The notes under the pieces were generated by a model. That model was not told where the DNA came from, searched no databases, and saw only the letters and a program-made list of their open reading frames with translations. From positions 5,394,001 to 5,458,000 of the forward strand of contig NZ_CP109485.1 of the NCBI RefSeq assembly GCF_035918235.1: a DNA stretch of 64,000 nucleotides. The letters run 5' to 3'. Position 1 is the stretch's first letter, and each line of letters begins with the position of its first letter. Both the position numbers and the translations under genes were made by a program. This document shows positions 8,859-49,524 of the stretch, piece after piece. This DNA comes from Streptomyces sp. NBC_01445. GTDB lineage: Bacteria > Actinomycetota > Actinomycetes > Streptomycetales > Streptomycetaceae.

Positions 8859-10604
8859 ATGTCAGCTGCTCCGGTGCCCGGCGCCACCCCACCGTCCGAC
8901 GGCGAGCGGGACTCCTCCGACGCGCTGGAGGCGGCGACGCAGGCGACGCGCGGGCTCCAGGGACTGTCCGCCGAGTTGACCGCGCGGGTGCCGCAGCTGC
9001 TCGAAGCGATGCGGTCCGTAGGCACCGGTCCGGAGCTGCACTCCACCCTCGACCGCATCTGCGAGACGGCCGCCGAGCTCGCCGACGCCCGTTACGCGGC
9101 GATCGGCGTCGTCTCAGAGGACGGCGAGGCTCTCTCGGACTTCGTCTTCCACGGAGTCGACGGAGAGACGGCGGAGCTCATCGGACGGCTGCCCGACGGC
9201 CACTGCGGGCTCCTCGGTGCGCTCATCAACGACCCGGACCCGGTACGCCTCGCGAACCTCGCCGACGACCCCCGCTCCTGCGGCTTTCCGTCCCACCACC
9301 CGCCGATGCGGAGCTTTCTGGGCGTCCCCATCCGCGTACAGGGGGAGATCTTCGGCAACCTCTATCTGACGGAGAAGCAGGGCGGGATCGAGTTCAACGA
9401 CTACGACCTGAACATGGTCCGTGTCCTCGCCACGGAGGCCGGCATCGCCATCGGCAACGCGCGCCTGTACGAGGCCGCCAGGCAGCGCGAGCGGTGGATC
9501 GACGGGTCCGTGGCCGTCACGACCGCCCTGCTGTCGGGCAGCGACGCCGAGGATGCCCTCCAGGTCGTCGCCGAACAGGCCAGACACCTGTCGGGCTCGT
9601 CGGCAGGCATCGTCCTCCTGCCGGCCGAGGAGGGCGGCATGGAGATCGTCGCCGTCTCGTCGGACGAGCCGTCGCAGGCCCTCGGCGTGATCATCCCGGC
9701 CGAGAGCGAGATCGTCGCCGAACTCCTGGTCGGCGCGGCCGTGTTCATCGACGACGCGTCCACCGACCCGCGCATACTGACCGATCTCGCGCACGAATAC
9801 GGACCGGCGATGATGCTGCCCCTTCAGAGCGACGGTCGCGTCCTCGGCACCCTCGTCACGCCACGCGCGCGTGGCGCCCGGCCCTTCAGCGACGCGGAGC
9901 GCACCCTCGCCACCCAGTTCGCGTCGCAGGCCGCACTCGCGCTGATGATGGCGGAGGCGCAGCGCGACCGGGAGCGGCTCGCGGTGTACGAGGACCGCGA
10001 CCGGATCGCCCGCGATCTCCACGACCTCGTCATCCAGCGCCTGTTCGCCACGGGGATGATGCTGGAGAGCGCTCAGCGCAGGTCCGTCGTGCCCGAGGTA
10101 CAGGTCGGTGTCGGCAGGGCCGTCGACGAGCTGGACGTCACCATCCAGGAGATCCGCACGGCGATCTTCGCGCTCCAGCAGGGGCCCGCCGAGGCGCCGT
10201 CGGGCCTGCGCACACGGGTCCTGCGCGAGATCAACATGGCGGCCGTACCGCTCGGCTTCAAGCCCACGCACCACTTCGCCGGCGCCGTCGACACCGTGGT
10301 CGGCGAACTCACCGGCAAGAACCTCATCGCCGCCCTGCGAGAGGCGCTGTCCAACGCGTTCCGGCACGCGGAGGCCGCCCGTATCGACGTGGTCGTCGAC
10401 GCGAACGTCACGCTCCCCGACGGGCAGCCCGGCGTCCGGCTGACGGTCGCCGACGACGGCGTCGGCATCCCGGAGGGCGGCCGGCGCAGCGGCCTCAAGA
10501 ACCTCAAACGGCGGGCCGATTCCCTGGGCGGCGACAGCTGGTACGGGCCGGGCATCGGCGAGGACGGGGGCGGCACGACGGTGATCTGGCAGGCGCCTCA
10601 CTGA
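8859..10604 (+). CDS. DevS/DosT-like GAF-GAF sensor histidine kinase (orphan)
   Basis: Cytoplasmic histidine kinase of 581 residues with two GAF domains (about 60-200 and 215-360), a HisKA_3 dimerisation helix with the phospho-acceptor in DRIARDLHDLVIQRL (H388), an N-box REALSNAFRHAEA and G-box DDGVGIPEGG. The first GAF domain keeps FPSHHPPMRSFLGVPI, with H146-H147 where mycobacterial DevS has its heme-ligating histidine (H149). Heme-based sensing of O2/NO/redox is therefore plausible. It lies 73 bp after cydCD, but no response regulator gene is adjacent. Start: ATG at 8859 with AAGG just upstream. Confidence 0.88.
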   Translation: MSAAPVPGATPPSDGERDSSDALEAATQATRGLQGLSAELTARVPQLLEAMRSVGTGPELHSTLDRICETAAELADARYAAIGVVSEDGEALSDFVFHGVDGETAELIGRLPDGHCGLLGALINDPDPVRLANLADDPRSCGFPSHHPPMRSFLGVPIRVQGEIFGNLYLTEKQGGIEFNDYDLNMVRVLATEAGIAIGNARLYEAARQRERWIDGSVAVTTALLSGSDAEDALQVVAEQARHLSGSSAGIVLLPAEEGGMEIVAVSSDEPSQALGVIIPAESEIVAELLVGAAVFIDDASTDPRILTDLAHEYGPAMMLPLQSDGRVLGTLVTPRARGARPFSDAERTLATQFASQAALALMMAEAQRDRERLAVYEDRDRIARDLHDLVIQRLFATGMMLESAQRRSVVPEVQVGVGRAVDELDVTIQEIRTAIFALQQGPAEAPSGLRTRVLREINMAAVPLGFKPTHHFAGAVDTVVGELTGKNLIAALREALSNAFRHAEAARIDVVVDANVTLPDGQPGVRLTVADDGVGIPEGGRRSGLKNLKRRADSLGGDSWYGPGIGEDGGGTTVIWQAPH

Positions 10605-10745
10605 AGGCACGACGAAGCGCTGAACCGGGCCTTGCCCGGGATCGCCTCGTGCCATGGCTTGGGCAGCACGGGGTGCCGCTCCAGGGGGCACGAGGGCTGT
10701 GCGCGGGGCGGGTCCACGTGCGGGGGACCGTTTCTTCCCGTGCTT

Positions 10746-11666
10746 CTAGGAGTTGCCCGATGCGCCGTCCCCGCAGGGTCGACGCGCCGCCAGGATCTGC
10801 TCGATGACCGCGGCCACGCCGTCCTCGTTGTTGGGCACCGTGTGGCCCGACGCAGCGGCGAGCACCTCCGGGTGCGCGTTGCCCATCGCGAACGAGGTGC
10901 CCGCCCACGTGAGCATCTCCACGTCGTTGGGCATGTCCCCGAAGGCGACGACCTCGGCCGCCGTGATGCCGCGCTCGGCGCAGCACAGCGCGAGGGTGCT
11001 GGCCTTGGAGACGCCGGGGCCGCTGATCTCCAGGAGCGCGCTGGGGCTGGAGCGGGTGATCGCCGCGCGGTCGCCGACGGCCTCGCGGGCCAGGGCGAGG
11101 AACTCGTCGGGGGCGAGGTCCGCGTGGTACGCGAGCAGCTTGAGGACCGGCTGGTCGGCGCAGGGCGAGCCGTCGGCGAGCAGCTTCTCGGCGGCGGCGA
11201 CGCTCTCCCCCGCCTCCAGGTGCAGCGGCGGGTACGTCGGCTCGTGGTGGAGGCCGCCGGTCCGCTCGACCGCGAAGGCCGTACCGGGCGCGGCGGCGCG
11301 CAGGATGTGTACGACGTCGAGGGCGGTCCCGGGCGCGAGGTCCCTGATCTTCACGAACCGGTGGCGGCCGGGGCCGCCGTGCAGGTCCACCACGGCCGCG
11401 CCGTTCCCGCAGATCGCCAGGCCGTGGCCGTGCACGTGGTCGCTGACGACGTTCATCCAGCGGGCCGGCCTGCCGGTCACGAAGAAGACCTCGATGCCCG
11501 CCTGCTCGGCGGCGGCGAGCGCGGCGACCGTCCGCGGCGAGACGGACTTGTCGTCGCGCAACAGCGTGCCGTCCAGGTCCGTGGCGACGAGCCGGGGCGC
11601 GGGGGCGTTGGCGGCCGGGGTCCAGGGCCGAGGAGTCGGTGAGGTCACCGCACTAGTGTCCCGCAT
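10746..11666 (-). CDS. HAD-superfamily (Cof-type) sugar/nucleotide phosphatase
   Basis: Cytoplasmic HAD hydrolase of the Cof/IIB subfamily, 306 residues. Motif [15 protein letters not shown] carries the nucleophile and acid aspartates; motif II is FVTGRPARW; the C-terminal [14 protein letters not shown] supplies the metal-binding acids (motif IV). Substrates of this family are phosphorylated sugars or cofactors such as FMN or PLP and cannot be told from sequence. A GTG about six codons downstream is an alternative start. It is a clear paralogue of the phosphatase at 22504-23328. Convergent with the sensor kinase; a short GC hairpin (10625-10639) lies between. Confidence 0.88.
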
Positions 11667-41526: not shown

Positions 41527-43002
41527 GTGAGCACCGAGAACGAGGGCACTTCGGTACCCGCGGCCCCGTCCGCACCTCCCGTGCCGGTGGAATCTCCCGC
41601 TACTCCCGCACCCGCCGGTTCCGCACCACCTCCGGAGCCTGCCGACGCGCCCACTGCGGTGATCCCGCCGGTCGAGGGCGCGGCACCGGGGGCGCACGAG
41701 GGTCCCGGCGCGGCCTCGGGGGCTGCACCGGGACCCGGCGGGCAGGACGAGGCCGCGCACGCGGCCTCGGGTGGCTGGCCGCCTCCGCCGCCCGCCGTTC
41801 CGCCGTACGGGGACGGCGGCGGCGGGGGGCACCACCCCTGGGGCGCCTCCTACCAGGCTCCGGAGCCCACACCGGGCCGTCGGCGCGGCGGTCTGCTGGC
41901 CGCGGTGGTCGCGGCGGCCCTGATCGCGGGCGGTGTCGGCGGTGGCATCGGCTACTGGGCGGCCGAGCGCAACGACGACGGTGGCGCGGATTCGACGACG
42001 GTCTCCGCCTCGGACAACCCGGCGGGCTTCAAGCGTGACGCGGCCTCGGTCGCCGGCATTGCGGCGAACGCGCTGCCGAGCACCGTCACCATCGAGGCCG
42101 AGGGCAGCGACGGCGAAGGCGGCACCGGCAGCGGCTTCGTCTACGACAAGCAGGGCCACATACTCACCAACAACCACGTGGTGGCCTCCGCCGCCGACGG
42201 AGGAAAGCTTTCGGCCACGTTCTCGAACGGCAAGAAGTACGACGCCGAGGTGATCGGCCGCGCCCAGGGCTACGACGTCGCGGTCATCAAGCTGAAGAAC
42301 GCCCCGTCGAACCTGAAGCCGCTGGTGCTCGCCAACTCGGACAAGGTCGCCGTCGGTGACGCGACCATCGCGATCGGCGCCCCCTTCGGTCTGTCGAACA
42401 CGGTGACCACGGGCATCGTGTCGGCGAAGAACCGCCCGGTGGCGTCCAGTGACAGCTCGGGCAGCAGCAAGGCGTCGTACATGAACGCGCTGCAGACCGA
42501 TGCCTCGATCAACCCGGGCAACTCGGGCGGCCCGCTGCTCGACGCGCGGGGCGCGGTCATCGGCATCAACTCGGCGATCCAGCCGGCGAGCAGCGGCGGC
42601 ATCGCGGGCTCCGGCCAGTCGGGCTCCGTCGGCCTCGGCTTCGCCATCCCGATCAACCAGGCGAAGAATGTCGCCAAGCAGCTCATCAAGACCGGACAGC
42701 CGGTCTATCCGGTGATCGGCGCCTCGGTCGCGCTGGACGAGCAGGGTGACGGCGCGAAGATCACCGAGCAGGGCGCGGGCGGCTCGTCCGCGGTCACGGC
42801 GAACGGTCCGGCGGACAAGGCCGGCCTGAAGCCCGGCGATGTCATCACCAAGCTCGACGACACGGTGATCGACAGCGGTCCGACCCTGATCGGCCAGATC
42901 TGGACGCACAAGCCGGGCGACACGGTCAAGATCACGTACAAGCGCGGCGGCGCGGAGCACACGGTCGACGTGGTCCTGGGTGAGCGCAAGGGCGACAGCT
43001 GA
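41527..43002 (+). CDS. HtrA/DegQ-like membrane-anchored serine protease with PDZ domain
   Basis: Trypsin-like envelope protease of 491 residues. A Pro/Ala-rich cytoplasmic N-terminus (about 1-115) is followed by one membrane helix (GGLLAAVVAAALIAGGVGGG), then an extracellular protease domain with triad positions in LTNNHVVAS (His), GYDVAVIKL (Asp) and NPGNSGGPLL (Ser). A C-terminal PDZ domain begins around residue 410 (ADKAGLKPGDVITKLDD). It degrades or refolds misfolded exported proteins. Start GTG at 41527 after GAGGAGA. A hairpin and tRNA-Ser follow. Confidence 0.93.
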   Translation: MSTENEGTSVPAAPSAPPVPVESPATPAPAGSAPPPEPADAPTAVIPPVEGAAPGAHEGPGAASGAAPGPGGQDEAAHAASGGWPPPPPAVPPYGDGGGGGHHPWGASYQAPEPTPGRRRGGLLAAVVAAALIAGGVGGGIGYWAAERNDDGGADSTTVSASDNPAGFKRDAASVAGIAANALPSTVTIEAEGSDGEGGTGSGFVYDKQGHILTNNHVVASAADGGKLSATFSNGKKYDAEVIGRAQGYDVAVIKLKNAPSNLKPLVLANSDKVAVGDATIAIGAPFGLSNTVTTGIVSAKNRPVASSDSSGSSKASYMNALQTDASINPGNSGGPLLDARGAVIGINSAIQPASSGGIAGSGQSGSVGLGFAIPINQAKNVAKQLIKTGQPVYPVIGASVALDEQGDGAKITEQGAGGSSAVTANGPADKAGLKPGDVITKLDDTVIDSGPTLIGQIWTHKPGDTVKITYKRGGAEHTVDVVLGERKGDS

Positions 43003-43063: not shown

Positions 43064-43148
43064 GGTGGGTTGCCCGAGCGGCCTAAGGGAACGGTCTTGA
43101 AAACCGTCGTGGCGCGAGTCACCGTGGGTTCAAATCCCACACCCACCG
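43064..43148 (+). tRNA. tRNA-Ser (anticodon TGA)
   Basis: 85-nt class II tRNA. Acceptor stem GGTGGGT (43064-43070) pairs with ACCCACC (43141-43147), discriminator G148. Anticodon stem ACGGT/ACCGT encloses the loop CTTGAAA, anticodon TGA at 43098-43100. A long variable arm and T-arm GTGGGTTCAAATCCCAC (43124-43140) follow. No CCA is encoded. An imperfect copy of its 3' 59 nt lies at 48490-48548. Confidence 0.95.
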
Positions 43149-43156
43149 CGCAAGTT

Positions 43157-43193
43157 GAAGGCCCCTGACCAGCAATATCGGTCGGGGGCCTTC
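43157..43193 (+). terminator. Terminator after tRNA-Ser
   Basis: GAAGGCCCCTGACC (43157-43170) and GGTCGGGGGCCTTC (43180-43193) form a 14-bp stem (one mismatch) with a 9-nt loop. Confidence 0.75.
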
Positions 43194-43609
43194 GTCATGC
43201 ACAGTGGCTGCCGGTGACCGCGATTCCCCGTGAGCCCTCGGTCCGTCGGGCACGGGAGGGGCGCAGCACATCGCAGATCACGCACGCTACGAAGGGCGCC
43301 GAGAGCAACCGCGGCAGTCCACGTGAGATCTCCAGAAGCCCAAGCCCGATCAACAGCCAGATGCCAAAGGCTCGGTGGCGAGTCCGGCGGTCCCGGCGTA
43401 CCGGAAGATCTTGCGGAGTTGTGGCAGGCGCCCAGTAGTCGCTACGACATCATCCTGCGCTCGGGTGGCGGACAGGCGGCGGTGGGCATCGCCGCCGCCT
43501 CCTGACACCCGCGGGGCCCTGTGGGCCGCCGTCGCTGAGGATAGTGAGACCCTGCATTCGGCCGGCGAGCACGGACCCGCACGCGCCGGCCGGTGAGGGA
43601 AGGGACAGC
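43194..43609. other. Gene-free left flank of the island
   Basis: About 416 bp between the tRNA terminator and the regulator gene. Reading frames up to 91 codons exist but none shows a recognisable domain or Streptomyces codon bias in a consistent frame. It may hold decayed element DNA. Confidence 0.5.
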
Positions 43610-44608
43610 ATGCTGGAGCCCGTGGGTCTCACGGCCGCCGAGGCCGAGATGTACCGCCTGCTGATCGTCGCCGAGGCGGCCTCCGCCGAGGAGATCGCCG
43701 GCCGCTCGAACCTCGGCGTCCCGGCTGCCCGGCGCCTGCTGCTCGCCCTGGAGGACAAGGGGCTGGCGTCCGCGGTGGAGGACAGTCCCGGCTGGTACTC
43801 GGCCATTCCCCCGGAGACGGCCCTCGTGCCGCGGCTGCAGCGCCAGTCCGACGCCCTGGAGCAGACCCGGGCGGCCATCCACGATCTGGTGGAGACCTAC
43901 CGCCGCAGCGCACAGGCATGGAGCGGGTGCGACGCGATCGAGATCATCAGCGGCGCGGCCGCGCTGCGGCAGCACCTGCGCCAACTTCAGGACGGCGCGC
44001 GTCACGAGATGCTGTGGTTCGTCAAGGCCCGATACCTGGCCATGCCCCCGGAGAGCAACCAGGAGGAGTACGACGCGCTGAACCGTGGCGTGCTCTACCG
44101 GGCCCTGTACGAACAGGAGTACTTCGACGACCCCAGCGCGGTGGACAACGTCGTCGCCGGGGTACGCGTCGGCGAGATCTCCCGCGCGGTGCCGCGGCTG
44201 CCGCTGCGCATGGCGATCGCCGACCGGTCGGTGGCCGTCCTGCCGCTGAACTCCGCGGACGCGCCCGGCAGCCCTCGCAGCCTCACGGCGGCGCTGGTGC
44301 GGCGGAGCAGCGTGCTGGACGCGCTCGTCGACCTGTTCGAGCACTACTGGGAGGTCGGTGCCCCGCTGCGGGTGACCGAGGAGGGCGGGATCGGCGGTGC
44401 CGGTCCCGAGGACGCGGCGTCACCGGCCGGGGAGGACCGGCACCTGCTGTCCCTGATGGTCGCCGGCATGACGGACGAGACGATCGCCGGGCAGCTGCGC
44501 GTGAGCAAGCGCACCATCCAGCGTCGCATCCAGGGCCTGATGAACCTCGCGGGCGTCGCCACGCGCATGCAGCTGGGGTGGCACGCGGCGCGCCGCGACT
44601 GGCTCTGA
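43610..44608 (+). CDS. TrmB/LuxR-type transcriptional regulator
   Basis: A 332-residue regulator. The N-terminus (about 1-65) has a TrmB-like winged helix (LTAAEAEMYRLLIVAE then LGVPAARRLLLALEDKGLAS). The C-terminus has a LuxR-type helix-turn-helix (about 270-330: LMVAGMTDETIAGQLRVSKR, TIQRRIQGLM). There is no receiver domain, so it is not a phosphorylation-driven regulator. The middle is a ligand-type domain with unknown effector. ATG at 43610 with GAGGGAAGGG upstream. It converges on the subtilase gene across a perfect hairpin; control of that gene is a natural guess. Confidence 0.85.
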   Translation: MLEPVGLTAAEAEMYRLLIVAEAASAEEIAGRSNLGVPAARRLLLALEDKGLASAVEDSPGWYSAIPPETALVPRLQRQSDALEQTRAAIHDLVETYRRSAQAWSGCDAIEIISGAAALRQHLRQLQDGARHEMLWFVKARYLAMPPESNQEEYDALNRGVLYRALYEQEYFDDPSAVDNVVAGVRVGEISRAVPRLPLRMAIADRSVAVLPLNSADAPGSPRSLTAALVRRSSVLDALVDLFEHYWEVGAPLRVTEEGGIGGAGPEDAASPAGEDRHLLSLMVAGMTDETIAGQLRVSKRTIQRRIQGLMNLAGVATRMQLGWHAARRDWL

Positions 44609-44647
44609 GCACCGCGGCCGGGGCCGTACCGCGCACCGGGCACAGCG

Positions 44648-44681
44648 GAGGGGCCCGCCGGAAGGATCCGGCGGGCCCCTC
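44648..44681. terminator. Bidirectional terminator between regulator and subtilase
   Basis: GAGGGGCCCGCCGG and CCGGCGGGCCCCTC form a perfect 14-bp stem with a 6-nt loop (AAGGAT), between two convergent genes. Confidence 0.85.
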
Positions 44682-44694
44682 GGTGCCGTCGGCG

Positions 44695-47600
44695 CTATTT
44701 CAGCAGGTAGGCCTTGATGACGGTCTGCTTGAAGGAGTTGCCCGCCGCGTCCTTGACGTACGTGCGCAGGCTGACCGATCCGCCCGCGGCGCGGCGCGGG
44801 CTGTCCACGGTCACGGTGCGGTGCGTGCCGGACCCCTTGACGGCGGTGGACTGCCACGTCCTGCCCTCGTCGTAGGAGACCTCGACGGTGACGGTGCGGA
44901 TCGGTGACTCGGCGGCGCCGACCGTGCGCTGGATCAGGACCGGGATGTCGAGGGCGCGTCCGGCCCTGGCACGGTTCCACTCGTCCAGTTCCGGCGACAT
45001 GCGCACCGCGTACAGCGGCAGCGCCTGGCGGGTCGCCGTGGTCTGCGACCGGAACTGCCACTCGGCCCGAAGCTTCGTGGAGATGGAGCTGGGAGCGCGG
45101 TCACGGTCCACCGCGAACGTCAGGCGGTAGTCGGCGGGAGTGGCGTCGGCCGGCACCTGGGCCAAGCCCCAGCTGTGGGGGACCAGTTCGCCATTGCGCC
45201 GCAGCTGCACCGTGGGCATGCCGGTCGTCGTGTCGCCCACCAGGTCGAGGTCTCCGTTGGCGGCGAACTGGAAGGCGTACCACATGTCGTCGCCCTCACG
45301 GAAGGTGTTCATCCCCTCGGGCGAGAAACCCACGGCCTGGACTCCGCCGTTCCAACGCTCCTGGACCTTGGCTCCGGCCTTGTAGCCGTGCAGGGCACTG
45401 AGATAGCTCTGCCCCGTCTTGCTCGGATCCAGGAAGCTGTTCTGGTCGAAGGCCGTCTGCCACCGCAGGCCCTCGGCCGACGAGAAGTAGTCGACGCGCC
45501 GGTTCGGAACCGGCAGTCCTTCCATCGACTGTCCGCCGAACCGGACGTTGTCGACGTACATCCAGACGATGCGGGTAGCGGTGGTGCCGGGCGCGGTGGC
45601 TGCGAACGTGGTGTTCACCGTGGCCAGTTCCGACTTGCGGGGGCGGTACCCGGGATCGGCCGGGATGGCGCCGTGCACCGGCCGGCTCAGGTAGTACACG
45701 GACGAGGGGTTCCCGCCGTCGGCGGCGAGCTCGTTCCAGACGGTGCTGACCAGGTAGGTGAACTTGGAGTCCTTGAACCGCGCCGTCGGAGTCGCGTACA
45801 CGCCCTCGATGTGGTCACTGCCGATCGCGTTCGCCATGGTGACGGAGAGCAGCTGGTCACCCAGGCTGATGGTGCCGACCTCGGCCGACGCGATGCGCGC
45901 GGTGCGGCTCGGAGCCGAGACGGTGACGGGCCTGGCCGTCCGGGCGTCGATGGTCTCCTTCTGGTCGGTGGTCATCACGGCCTTCGGCACGCCGACCACG
46001 GTGGCCTCGGTGAACGCCCCGTCGAAGAAGAAGCCGGTCACCGAGTAGGTGTCGTTCGGCAGCCGCAGCACGGTGCTGCCCTGGCCGACCAGTTCCTGCT
46101 CGTAGGTCCTGCCGTCGGCGGAGTTGACGAGCAGGTCGGCGTAGTCGGGGGCGGCGCCCGAGCGGCCCTTCAGGGTGATGCGGAGATCGTGCGACGGTTG
46201 CTCGAGGTCCATGCCGAAGGGAACGCGCACCGAGATCTTGCCGTCCGCGGTGGCCGCGGTCACCACACCGCTGTAGGCCACGTAGGCCGTCGTGGCCTCC
46301 GGGGTCACGGTGAACCTGACGTCCGCCGTACCGTGCGCGGGCACGGTGACGGTGTCGGCGCCGAGCTGGAACAACCCCTCGGGGGCGGGCCGGTCCAGCC
46401 TGCCGGTGCTCGCGTGCTGCGTCACGTGAAGGGTGAGGGGCTCCGCGCCGGGGTTGCGGTAGGTGATCGTCTTGGTCACCGGCGGCCGCTTGCCGTCGGT
46501 CCAGCGGACCAGCCCGAAGTCGAGTCCGGTGGGCTCGGCGGAGACCTCCTGGTCGACCGCCCGGGCGACGTCGACGCGCCCGGCGCCCTGGAAGTAGGCG
46601 CCGTGCTCCTTGGCACCGGTCGCCGAGTGCATCAGCTGGCGCTTGACCTGCTCCGGGGTCCAGTCGGGGTGCTGCTGGAACAGGATCGCGGCCGATCCGG
46701 CGACGTGCGGCGTGGCCATCGAGGTGCCGCTCATCGCCACGTAGCCGTCGTCGGCGCTGGTGCCGCCCGCCATCGCGCCGACGACGTTCACGCCGGGGGC
46801 GATGATGTCGGGCTTGAGACCGGAGTCGCCCGTGCGCGGACCGACCGAGCTGAAATCGGCGCGGTCGTCGTCGGCCTCGGAGGCACCGACGGCCAGCGCC
46901 CGGTCGGCGGAGGCGGGCGAGGAGACCTTGCTCCCCGAGCCGTTGTTGCCCGCGGCCGCCACGACCAGGGTGCCGTAGTCGCGGGTGACGGTGTCGACCA
47001 CGGCCTCGATGGCGTCGGTCTCCGGGGTGTCGATGTCGCCCAGGCTGAGGTTGATCACCTTGGCGCCGTGCTGGGCGGCCCAGGCCAGGCCCTCGACGAT
47101 GGCGGAGTCGTCGCAGTTGCCGTCCATCGTGCAGACCTTGCCGAACAGGACCTGCGCGCCGGGTGCCACGCCCTTGTACCGGCCGTCGGAGGCCGCGCCG
47201 GAACCGGCGATGGTCGAGGTCACATGGGTGCCGTGGCCGTTCAGGTCGTCGGTGTTCGGCTCTCCGGTGAAGTTCTTGGATTCGGCGACCAGGCCCTTGA
47301 GGTCCGGGTGATTCGGGTCGAACCCGGTGTCGAGCACCGCGACCTTGACCCCGTCGCCCTTGTAGCCCAGCTCCCAGGCGTGGGGGGCTCCGATGAGCGG
47401 CACCGTGCTGTCGAGCTGGACCTTGGCGTGTCCGTCCAGCCAGACCCGGCTCACGCCCGCGCCGAAGGACTTGGCACCCGCCGTGGCGGGGGCGATGCCC
47501 GCCCAGAACGCGGGGGCGTCCCTGCGGCTTTCGCTGAGCGCCGCGAAGGAGGTGCCGGATACGGGTCGGACCTCGTCGGCCCCGGCTGCGGTGAGCCGGC

Positions 47601-48093
47601 TCTTGGCGGAACTCGCGTCACCCGTGTACTGGACGATCAGCGGCAGGCTCGACCGCTCGGCGTACTTGCCCTTGACCAGGGCCGACACATTGAACAGAGC
47701 CTTGTCGAGGCGACCCGCGGCGAGCAGCGGCAGGGCGTCGGCGGGTATCACCGTCCAGTCGTGCCCCTGCTGGCGCTTGACGAACATGATGTGCTCGCGG
47801 CCCTTGGAGGGCTCGACCGAGACGCTCTGCCGCCCCGAGGCGTCCGTCTCCAGCGTGACCCGGTCGCCCGTGACGAGGGTGACCTGGTGCCGGGAGACCA
47901 TCGGCGTCCGGGCCGGGGTCGCCCTGCCCGGCGCGCCCGCGCCGCTCCGTCCGGTGTCCGGAGCGAGGTCCCGGGCCGCGGCGGGGGCGACGGTCAGTCC
48001 GGCCAGCAATGCCACGAGGGCGGCGGTGGCCGCGGCAGACCGCGACCCGGGACGCCGTACCCACGGGCGCCACCTGCTGTTCATGTCTCTCAT
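44695..48093 (-). CDS. Large secreted subtilisin-like (S8) serine protease
   Basis: Extracellular protease of 1132 residues. A signal peptide (AAATAALVALLAGLTVAPAAA) is followed by a propeptide region (about 60-225), then an S8 catalytic domain with Asp in VAVLDTGFDPNHPDL, His in LNGHGTHVTSTIAG and Ser in SGTSMATPHVAGSAA. The C-terminal half (about 520-1132) is beta-rich, with domains that look like immunoglobulin/CARDB-type accessory modules. Start ATG at 48093 or the in-frame ATG at 48084; both have weak ribosome sites. It lies between the tRNA-Ser copies, so may have come with the island. Confidence 0.93.
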   Translation of the reverse strand: MRDMNSRWRPWVRRPGSRSAAATAALVALLAGLTVAPAAARDLAPDTGRSGAGAPGRATPARTPMVSRHQVTLVTGDRVTLETDASGRQSVSVEPSKGREHIMFVKRQQGHDWTVIPADALPLLAAGRLDKALFNVSALVKGKYAERSSLPLIVQYTGDASSAKSRLTAAGADEVRPVSGTSFAALSESRRDAPAFWAGIAPATAGAKSFGAGVSRVWLDGHAKVQLDSTVPLIGAPHAWELGYKGDGVKVAVLDTGFDPNHPDLKGLVAESKNFTGEPNTDDLNGHGTHVTSTIAGSGAASDGRYKGVAPGAQVLFGKVCTMDGNCDDSAIVEGLAWAAQHGAKVINLSLGDIDTPETDAIEAVVDTVTRDYGTLVVAAAGNNGSGSKVSSPASADRALAVGASEADDDRADFSSVGPRTGDSGLKPDIIAPGVNVVGAMAGGTSADDGYVAMSGTSMATPHVAGSAAILFQQHPDWTPEQVKRQLMHSATGAKEHGAYFQGAGRVDVARAVDQEVSAEPTGLDFGLVRWTDGKRPPVTKTITYRNPGAEPLTLHVTQHASTGRLDRPAPEGLFQLGADTVTVPAHGTADVRFTVTPEATTAYVAYSGVVTAATADGKISVRVPFGMDLEQPSHDLRITLKGRSGAAPDYADLLVNSADGRTYEQELVGQGSTVLRLPNDTYSVTGFFFDGAFTEATVVGVPKAVMTTDQKETIDARTARPVTVSAPSRTARIASAEVGTISLGDQLLSVTMANAIGSDHIEGVYATPTARFKDSKFTYLVSTVWNELAADGGNPSSVYYLSRPVHGAIPADPGYRPRKSELATVNTTFAATAPGTTATRIVWMYVDNVRFGGQSMEGLPVPNRRVDYFSSAEGLRWQTAFDQNSFLDPSKTGQSYLSALHGYKAGAKVQERWNGGVQAVGFSPEGMNTFREGDDMWYAFQFAANGDLDLVGDTTTGMPTVQLRRNGELVPHSWGLAQVPADATPADYRLTFAVDRDRAPSSISTKLRAEWQFRSQTTATRQALPLYAVRMSPELDEWNRARAGRALDIPVLIQRTVGAAESPIRTVTVEVSYDEGRTWQSTAVKGSGTHRTVTVDSPRRAAGGSVSLRTYVKDAAGNSFKQTVIKAYLLK

Positions 48094-48489
48094 GGGGGGA
48101 CAGACTGGTGCCGAAAAAGGCGCAGGTCAGCACTTTCCTGTGTCCACGAGGTGCCAAGTCACCTTTACGCCAGGGCCAAATATGGGTAAAGCGTCTCAAT
48201 TACCGAGACTCCGCGGCCATCGGAACGGCCGGCTGCGCATGCGGCGGCGGATGCCGGACCGGTGTCGCGAAGCGGTGTTCGGCAGGACACTTGGGGACGG
48301 CCGGCGACCTGGATGATGGCTCTGGGCCGCGACGGCATCCTTGTCGGCCTCTAGCGCGATTTTCTTGGGAGCTCGGCTTGCCATGTCGGAAGACCTCTGT
48401 GTGGCCATCCTTTGGCCAGGACGGGCTTTCACGAGTGGAGCCAGTGGGGAAACGCCCTGGTCAACGGTGGTTCAACTGAGCTCTGTGCA
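48094..48489. other. Upstream region of the subtilase inside the island
   Basis: 396 bp with no recognised gene. A minus-strand frame of 78 codons (48196-48432; basic, with MASRAPKKIALEADKDA) has no known domain. The region must hold the subtilase promoter; it also lies where an integrase gene would be expected. Confidence 0.45.
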
Positions 48490-48548
48490 ACGCTCTTGGA
48501 AACCGTCGTGGCGCGATTCGCCGTGGGTTCACATCCCACACCCACCGC
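48490..48548 (+). repeat. Degenerate copy of the tRNA-Ser 3' half (att-like)
   Basis: Matches 43091-43149 over 59 bases without gaps; five substitutions. It starts in the anticodon stem (anticodon becomes TGG) and runs to the acceptor 3' end, the usual attB-homologous segment of tRNA-integrating elements. The 5' part of a tRNA is absent, so it is not a functional tRNA. Confidence 0.85.
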
Positions 48549-48564
48549 TTGCAGGTAGGTGTTT

Positions 48565-48598
48565 GTAAGGGGCGTTCGCCGTGGCGGGCGCCCCTTAC
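48565..48598. terminator. Hairpin beside the tRNA-Ser copy
   Basis: GTAAGGGGCG (48565-48574) and CGCCCCTTAC (48589-48598) form a perfect 10-bp stem with a 14-nt loop. It lies downstream of the Prim-Pol gene (minus strand) and just after the tRNA copy; it may be the original tRNA terminator. Confidence 0.65.
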
Positions 48599-48639
48599 GT
48601 GTGTCCTGGGGAAGCGGGTTCGCGTGCGGGCGTCCTGGC

Positions 48640-49524
48640 CTACGCCTCCGTGTCGTTGCGCCGGGTCATCCGGGCCGCCGAGGCGATCGTGGAGCGGGCC
48701 TCGTGTTCCGCGAGGCCCGTGCGGGTCGCGGCCTTCACGAGGGCGTTGGTGAGGCTGTCGCCGAGGTCGCTCTCGTAGGCGCGGCAAGCGGCCCAGAACA
48801 GGCGGGTGTTGCGCTGGCCCTCATGTGCCGCGAGCACGAACTGGACCAGGCCCTGGCCGTGTCGGCCCGCATGTGCCGGTGACGGGTGGTGCACGCGTGG
48901 CGGGGGTGTGAGCAGCCGCAGGAGCGTCGGCGGGCAGGGCGCGACAGACAGATGGGCGGTTCCTGGGACTGCGCTGTAGACGCCCTGGGCCGTGCGGGAG
49001 CCGGGGCCCACGAGATAGCCGCCCGCGCCACGGATGTCGATGCCCGGCGCGAGGCGTCCCGCCGAGTTGGGGACCACGACGTCCGGCGGTCCGGAGAGCC
49101 ACACATGACGGCCGCCGCTGGGCGTGGCCACGACGACGGTGTCCGGGATCGTGAAGAGGTGGCGCAGCGCCAGTTCGCGCAGTGCTGCCGAGGAGTCCGT
49201 ACCGGACTTGGTGTCGAGGTCGACGCCGATGAGGTGGTGTGGCGGCAGCCCGCACGCGATGCCGTAGCCGGTGGCGCGGGGCGCCGCCGCGAAGAGCTCA
49301 CGGATGCGGCCCGGGTCGGTCGTGGCGTCGTACACGCCGTGGCCGGGGCGGCCGCACTCGCCGTGGCACGGGGCCGGGTCGGGTTCGTCGCGGTGCGGGG
49401 AGCGCAGGGCGGGGAGCTTCGTGCGGGAGAGCGGGATCACGGCCAGTCCGCGCTCGGCGGCGGAGAGGGCGTGAGCGAGGGCCAGGGTCGCAAAGGGCAC
49501 TGCATGCCGGTCGGTGGTGGCCAT
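48640..49524 (-). CDS. Bifunctional DNA primase/polymerase (Prim-Pol) domain protein
   Basis: A 294-residue archaeo-eukaryotic-primase-type protein. The acidic metal motif is seen in LIGVDLDTKSGTD, followed by TPSGGRHVWLSGP and GIDIRGAGGYLVGPGS, matching the Prim-Pol core. A C-terminal helical part (about 220-294: RNTRLFWAACRAYESDLGD) resembles the helicase-associated or PriCT-type extension. Such enzymes occur in plasmids, phages and integrative elements, and also beside tRNA genes in Streptomyces. Because it is outside the tRNA repeat it may be resident or from an older insertion. ATG at 49524. Confidence 0.85.
   Translation of the reverse strand: MATTDRHAVPFATLALAHALSAAERGLAVIPLSRTKLPALRSPHRDEPDPAPCHGECGRPGHGVYDATTDPGRIRELFAAAPRATGYGIACGLPPHHLIGVDLDTKSGTDSSAALRELALRHLFTIPDTVVVATPSGGRHVWLSGPPDVVVPNSAGRLAPGIDIRGAGGYLVGPGSRTAQGVYSAVPGTAHLSVAPCPPTLLRLLTPPPRVHHPSPAHAGRHGQGLVQFVLAAHEGQRNTRLFWAACRAYESDLGDSLTNALVKAATRTGLAEHEARSTIASAARMTRRNDTEA

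Follow-up and report, generated by a model that had tools for sequence, protein, structure and literature searches.

An island of about 5.3 kb in a serine-tRNA gene of the Streptomyces chromosome is probably the relic of two actinomycete integrative conjugative elements (AICEs) of different families, which had inserted one behind the other at tRNA-Ser(UGA) as tRNA - A - B. It lies in a 64,000-nt stretch of Streptomyces sp. NBC_01445, hereafter the window, and encloses a regulator and a protease gene between two copies of a tRNA 3'-end repeat (Table 1). As judged from the arm sequences, its ends are hybrid, type A beside the tRNA and type B at the far end.

Table 1. Features of the island and its flanks (positions in the window)
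Feature	Position	Strand	Evidence or remark
HtrA-like trypsin/PDZ protease gene, chromosomal left flank	41527..43002	+	Pfam Trypsin_2, PDZ_2
Intact tRNA-Ser, anticodon TGA, attL side	43064..43149	+	ARAGORN; 86 nt 100% identical in L013 and L009
attL copy of the 60-nt repeat, anticodon arm to tRNA 3' end	43090..43149	+	
Type A P' arm	43150..43274	+	72.0 bits to the type A profile; no match to type B
Terminator hairpin in the A P' arm	about 43158-43195		
A P' arm motif ATTCCCCGTG	43223-43232		
A P' arm motif TCGGGCACGGGAGGGG	43246-43261		
Cargo regulator, N-terminal TrmB domain and C-terminal HTH	43610..44608	+	PF01978 above cut-off
Cargo S8 subtilase, 1132 aa	44695..48093	-	PF00082, E 2.6e-63; DTG/HGTH/GTSMA motifs
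Type B P arm	48417..48496	+	Position matrix B 19.1, A -57.0
CTGGTCA in the B P arm	48457-48463		GGTCA 38 nt before the core T
attR copy of the repeat	48489..48548	+	5 changes relative to the tRNA
Chromosomal right flank, as after the tRNA in the empty site	48549..48639	+	90% over 70 bp to L009
Prim-Pol gene, chromosomal anchor for finding the site in relatives	48640..49524	-	PF09250, E 1.7e-36

Insertion site and cargo

A repeat search of the window aligned the two copies without gaps at 55 of 60 bases (92%), with five mismatches at repeat positions 5, 11, 29, 32 and 44. The first-pass annotation had reported a direct repeat with 54 of 59 bases identical, which is the same result once the first base is dropped, and its layout from the anticodon arm to the tRNA 3' end holds as well. 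Searched against the whole 11.47-Mb genome, the attR copy gave an E-value of 1.3e-17, so that chance is ruled out for the repeat. ARAGORN recognised a single tRNA in the window, the intact tRNA-Ser(TGA). An intact tRNA gene with a displaced 3' fragment in the same orientation, as found here, belongs to the Islander-type signature described for tRNA-integrated genomic islands, and crossover in the anticodon loop is a recognised class in the same source (PMC4383910).

Loci of relatives were found with the Prim-Pol protein across the contigs of the genus, with the best 80 of 378 confirmed loci kept; Prim-Pol matched at an E-value of 1e-60 or better in 44 of 57 genomes. The empty-site comparison proposed in the first-pass annotation found its relative in Streptomyces sp. 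NBC_01446 (L009), where one intact tRNA directly joins the flank that follows position 48549 in the window. Streptomyces sp. CB01635 (L013), a closer relative than L009, carries the same repeat pair and island at 98% identity. The insertion at tRNA-Ser, already read as an old tRNA-integrated element with attL and attR, is supported by these empty and filled sites. The other early reading, a decayed tandem tRNA-Ser with no insertion, would account for the partial tRNA copy, but a single tRNA with no further fragment is seen in the empty-site relative, and the fragment in the window starts at the crossover point with an element-type arm on its left; its probability is negligible.

The window and L013 do not differ in the tRNA copy of the repeat, and the attR copy shows two private changes in each strain as well as a core change common to both, CTTGA to CTTGG, in the presumed overlap. 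The window lacks ~77 bp next to the A arm (at about 43262) that are present in L013. Synonymous divergence between the two strains is 0.019 and 0.028 for the cargo genes and 0.025 for Prim-Pol; the similar values indicate that the island was inherited together with its surroundings. The G+C content is 0.706 in both the island and the window, so that composition gives no hint of origin.

Gene calls and Pfam bear out the earlier description of the enclosed genes: the only two long gene calls between the repeat copies are a TrmB-domain regulator, whose C-terminal HTH matches GerE/LuxR under Pfam's cut-off, and an S8 subtilase, whose predicted N-terminus suggests a signal peptide. The cargo looks conserved, as judged from small counts of changes against L013 (dN/dS of 0.14 from 7 nucleotide changes in the regulator and 0.26 from 42 in the subtilase). 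In the same genome, four of the seven other regulator matches (E <1e-20) adjoin an S8 protease match (C1:3086034, 10186813, 2030282 and 339862), and a fifth paralogue at C1:9528849 has a weaker S8 protease match ~1.6 kb off. From this paralogous pairing, a regulated secreted protease is the likely role of the cargo. One paralogous regulator-protease pair (L092 3961-10010, about C1:2026460-2032509) is seen 1.2 kb from a weak tRNA-Ser-like fragment of 52 nt (87%) without recognisable arms. The full island body was found in its own genome alone among 159 genomes (E <=1e-100, two candidates scored per genome), and the same search gave partial matches at 68-72% in 11 other genomes.

The absence of an integrase, likewise reported earlier, was borne out by several searches. 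An initial motif scan of the window found none, and the motif later proved too strict for the type A and type B families described below, as the type A integrase reads HDLRASHG; a looser scan of the fetched loci returned frame noise and no credible integrase. Integrases were finally located by PF00589 searches of genomes, and the closest of ten such places in the genome lies ~0.5 Mb from the island. In the island itself, tblastn with both integrase families gave chance-level matches only (E >1), and the catalytic-domain HMM found no integrase-like ORF, whereas the same HMM finds integrase fragments in other islands. The integrase inside the island that belongs to the Islander-type signature was hence not found here. 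Comparison of the island with 19 element interiors by blastn yielded three matches of 25-37 nt and no backbone gene of either family; scattered short tblastx matches were disregarded.

Two AICE families and their arms

Related islands with an integrase, which the first-pass annotation had proposed to look for, are present at the same tRNA-Ser site. They fall into two families, and crossover takes place in the same anticodon loop in each. The tyrosine integrase of type A lies distally and reads toward attR; that of type B adjoins the tRNA and points at it. The two integrases share 24-32% identity in tblastn matches, and we call them unrelated. One type A element annotated closely (L149) encodes RepSA above NCBIfam's cut-off, FtsK/SpoIIIE, GntR-UTRA, NUDIX, a small HTH_17 protein resembling an excisionase and the distal tyrosine integrase; RepSA was also found in a second type A element (L153). 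By these predicted genes, type A is classed as a pSAM2-like AICE. One annotated type B element (L152) has an FtsK/SpoIIIE match, the tRNA-proximal tyrosine integrase and DUF3631, which is the RepAM domain (PMC3218068). Int, Rep and FtsK-type Tra, which together define an AICE, are thus found in both L149 and L152, and the window island holds the regulator and the protease only.

The arms beside the core distinguish the two families. Counted from the core T, TGACC stands at -45 in the P arm of type A and GGTCA at -38 +/-1 in that of type B, with chance rates in background segments of 0.37% and 0.47%, respectively; the two motifs are largely one octamer in opposite orientation (TGACCTGC vs GCAGGTCA). 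The P' arms, which include the tRNA terminator, also differ between the types. A P' profile trained on loci from the first set (see below), eight of type A and nine of type B, typed 17 of 17 correctly in leave-one-out, and its maximum over 3000 control segments was 2.6 bits for A and 4.4 bits for B. The P-arm matrix favoured the right type in 32 of 32 cases. The type B P arm is short and weakly conserved, with leave-one-out scores from -0.4 to 35.6, and several true B P arms score under the best background segment (16.0); the window score of 19.1 was reached by none of 5000 background segments.

These controls bear on the reading that a single A or B element lost its integrase while one arm drifted to resemble the other type. 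Islands with matched ends and no integrase (L158, L160, L255 and L019) or only integrase fragments (L199 and L200) do exist, as such a history would require, but the B motif stands at the right distance in so few background segments, and the window B score in none, that we hold drift to be highly improbable.

Ends were typed at 46 loci that have the tRNA and a distal repeat, a first set of 28 and a second set of 18, and a full-length integrase was taken as at least 300 aa matched. The first set comprised eight A..A loci with full-length integrase A, seven B..B loci with full-length integrase B, two type B loci with integrase B whose other end was untyped (L197 and L198, P arm), two A..A loci without integrase, three B..B loci without full-length integrase B, three A..B loci (the window, L013 and L159), one B..A locus (L037, integrase B in pieces) and two untyped loci without full integrase. 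The second set comprised seven A..A loci with integrase A, seven B..B loci with integrase B (one being the first unit of a B-B array), one A-B array with both integrases, one intact A element followed by a B remnant, one A..A locus without integrase and one untyped locus. In L079, L194 and L246 the distal arm could not be typed, and none of the three has a full-length integrase. Altogether, matching ends were seen in every one of the 29 elements that had a full-length integrase and could be typed at both ends (15 A..A and 14 B..B), a count that includes the loci from which the arm rule was derived and that comes from Streptomyces loci that are not independent (L157/L160 and L158/L250 share >90% over the first 2 kb).

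The second set represents 18 of 21 searched genomes, G162, G173 and G177 being excluded with tRNA and repeat on different contigs. It was only partly blind, as the distal arms and type A integrases had already been seen; the tRNA-side arms and type B integrases were new. Six distal-B loci whose integrase was initially not visible (L011, L020, L040, L048, L067 and L083) all turned out to carry the B arm and the type B integrase on their tRNA side; the seventh, L055, is the A-B array. Three loci (L041, L086 and L183) were excluded from arm typing, as their partial repeat left the core not anchorable, and the integrase of L189 matches in two pieces of 346 and 131 aa.

Origin of the mismatched ends

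The A-B array of Streptomyces sp. SA15 (L252/L253, the genome of L055) reads tRNA - A - intA - att - intB - B - att, with its integrases 231 bp apart and its outer ends A..B. The integrase A frame ends ~33 bp before the inner repeat and the integrase B frame lies ~135 bp after it. Two further loci show an intact A element followed by type B remains: L244 of S. scabiei 87.22 has an intact intA and then a B remnant, and was counted apart with its distal octamer off by one base; L157/L219 (G056) has an intact A and then a decayed B.

A second A..B relic, independent of the window, is L159 (G057), in which the catalytic-domain HMM found no integrase. Its left 1.29 kb, counted from 100 bp ahead of the tRNA, shares 84-96% identity with six A-ended loci (L149, L150, L155, L157, L158 and L160), and L154 and L156 match it over 205-294 bp only. 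Its right end, including the repeat, is 83% identical over 216 bp to the B element L161; an inner 0.5 kb also matches L161 at 91%, and part of this also matches the A-ended L155 and L157 at 86-87%. The known hybrids are few: the window with L013, which count as one event, L159, and L037 in the reverse order B..A.

We propose that an A and a B element would have stacked side by side as tRNA-A-B. With the type A integrase at the far end of its element and the type B integrase on the tRNA side, the two would stand tail to tail at the inner att. If the middle was then lost, both integrases would have gone together with the inner att and the conjugation genes, and the outer A arm, the two cargo genes and the outer B arm would remain as a hybrid-ended island. 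The empty site, the filled site, the arm types, the precursor array and the second A..B relic are observed parts of this scheme, which was framed before the SA15 array was found. We infer the deletion itself in the window, where it is read from the two ends alone because no backbone gene was found in the island and blastn gave only matches of 25-37 nt.

The mismatched ends could also have arisen by homologous recombination between two islands at the site in two strains, with exchanges on the tRNA/HtrA side and within cargo common to both. The many different islands at this site in the genus would let islands with different ends meet, and both integrases could be lost on the way. An existing A-B array, however, needs internal loss only, and apart from the own genome none of the 159 genomes has a full-length match to the island body at the threshold given above, which makes recombination unlikely.

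Another reading is a non-autonomous, satellite-like element that natively ends in an A-type P' and a B-type P arm and is mobilised by a third integrase acting in trans. P_B|core|P'A sites do exist away from the tRNA, e.g. L166, with no type A or B integrase detected within ~10 kb, but such junctions are also the product of B-A tandem arrays. Not one of the 29 elements counted above, all with an integrase and two typed ends, shows the P'A..P_B combination, and the changed attR core, present in L013 as well, also speaks against a mobile satellite; we consider it improbable. Of the early phrase "old satellite-type insertion", the old insertion stands, and the satellite type gives way to a composite relic, which is more likely than one small element because each end derives from a different AICE family.

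For the composite relic, we predict that Int A would act only between two A arms and Int B only between two B arms. With an A arm only at attL and a B arm only at attR, neither integrase alone would excise the island. An A element arriving at attR, or a B element at the tRNA, would make the outer ends match, and the island could then move. The core change at attR lies in the presumed overlap, so recombination should weaken further.

Known elements and the tRNA-Ser(UGA) hotspot

The tRNA 3' half and its downstream arm were matched in 119 of 121 genomes of the genus, and the tRNA-Ser(UGA) site serves two AICE families as a hotspot throughout the genus. Among 91 loci with tRNA and Prim-Pol both in view (93 fetched minus two exact duplicates, partly hand-chosen and not a random sample), 11 have <300 bp between the two, 12 have 0.3-1 kb, 28 have 1-3 kb, 16 have 3-6 kb and 24 have 6-20 kb. 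At the same site, S. himalayensis (L038 13964-18451) has a compact 4.3-kb type B island, an intact-looking small element that encodes its type B integrase at full length and a single large DUF5122/DUF11 protein. The chromosomal neighbour of the hotspot, Prim-Pol, is itself an AICE replication type (PMC3218068), and this gene could be an old relic.

In kind, the island resembles a known class, the cis-mobilizable element (CIME), described as a decayed ICE or IME with attL and attR and no integration or transfer genes, and known to undergo accretion (PMC5704250, PMC7563491). Like a CIME, it is an att-flanked relic in a tRNA 3' end, with cargo only, at a site of tandem accretion, and it has no integration or transfer genes. 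Its core repeats are kept, with arms of different types and a changed attR core; derivation by deletion fits the ends and the SA15 array, with no backbone remnant inside the island. The variant lies in the ends, which, as read from the arms, are mismatched and come from two unrelated families; in contrast to a CIME, neither family's integrase is predicted to excise the island unless a new element supplies the missing arm type.

The window attL has the arm of pSAM2-like AICEs, of which L149 follows the described order att-tra-rep-int-att (PMC3218068), but the island lacks RepSA, FtsK-type Tra, GntR, HTH_17 and integrase. Similarly, attR has the arm of DUF3631 (RepAM-type) AICEs, but FtsK/SpoIIIE, DUF3631 and integrase genes are absent. 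Stacking of AICEs with different integrases is described in PMC3218068, where tandem arrays sharing integrase and site are termed unstable. Accretion of AICEs and DAICEs at tRNA-Arg in a Streptomyces population, with families of different integrases stacked and a remnant element, is described in PMC9513070; that case concerns another tRNA, and two-family-ended remnants are not among the descriptions in the parts of that article consulted. We found no description of hybrid-ended relics in the portions of the open-access literature consulted, and do not claim their absence from print.

Orphan tRNA-Ser 3' halves far from the tRNA were seen at L089 (9944-10024), at L090 (8923-9067 and 9879-10014, on contig C2 of 1.04 Mb) and at L091 (9901-10010, at C1:9954900), with no type A or B integrase found within ~10 kb. 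The L090 sites have strong type A P' arms (77 and 88 bits). The two orphan fragments on C2 that lie 956 bp apart, with a 156-aa ORF between them, prompted an integron-like cassette system as a candidate, which was not kept: AICE markers were absent from 17 and present in 11 of 28 stretches examined, three of which hold a full tRNA. In other genomes, 19 orphan fragments occur in 13 of 57 (e.g. L163, L164, L166, L167 and L220-L231). A left flank ending CGATCTTGA recurs in several of them, with more in common between L164 and L230 (AGTCTCAATGG), and this flank may be a third arm type; near well-conserved orphan arms, no type A or B integrase was found. The terminator/P' arm of the orphan att-like site in L089 is split by an IS-like insertion (about 10020-10900, C2:577020-577900) that has inverted ends GAGATCATCTCAATTG and ORFs resembling a putative transposase. 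In G000, equal-score integrase matches at C1:37088, C1:10395710 and C2:37086, ~37 kb from both chromosome ends and from the C2 start, suggest that the chromosome and C2 share terminal sequence.

The arms beside the tRNA repeat serve as labels of which family made each end, even without element genes, and integrase-less islands become interpretable through arm typing. For the composite relic, this gives a testable account of how cargo loses mobility, with two families, opposite integrase positions and one tRNA. We tentatively suggest a one-step ratchet, in which tRNA-A-B stacking would let one deletion disable both integrases and lock the island by its mismatched ends. If true, release of the island would take an A element inserting distally or a B element landing on the tRNA, and nothing else, and the ratchet would be a general route by which cargo gets fixed at hotspots.
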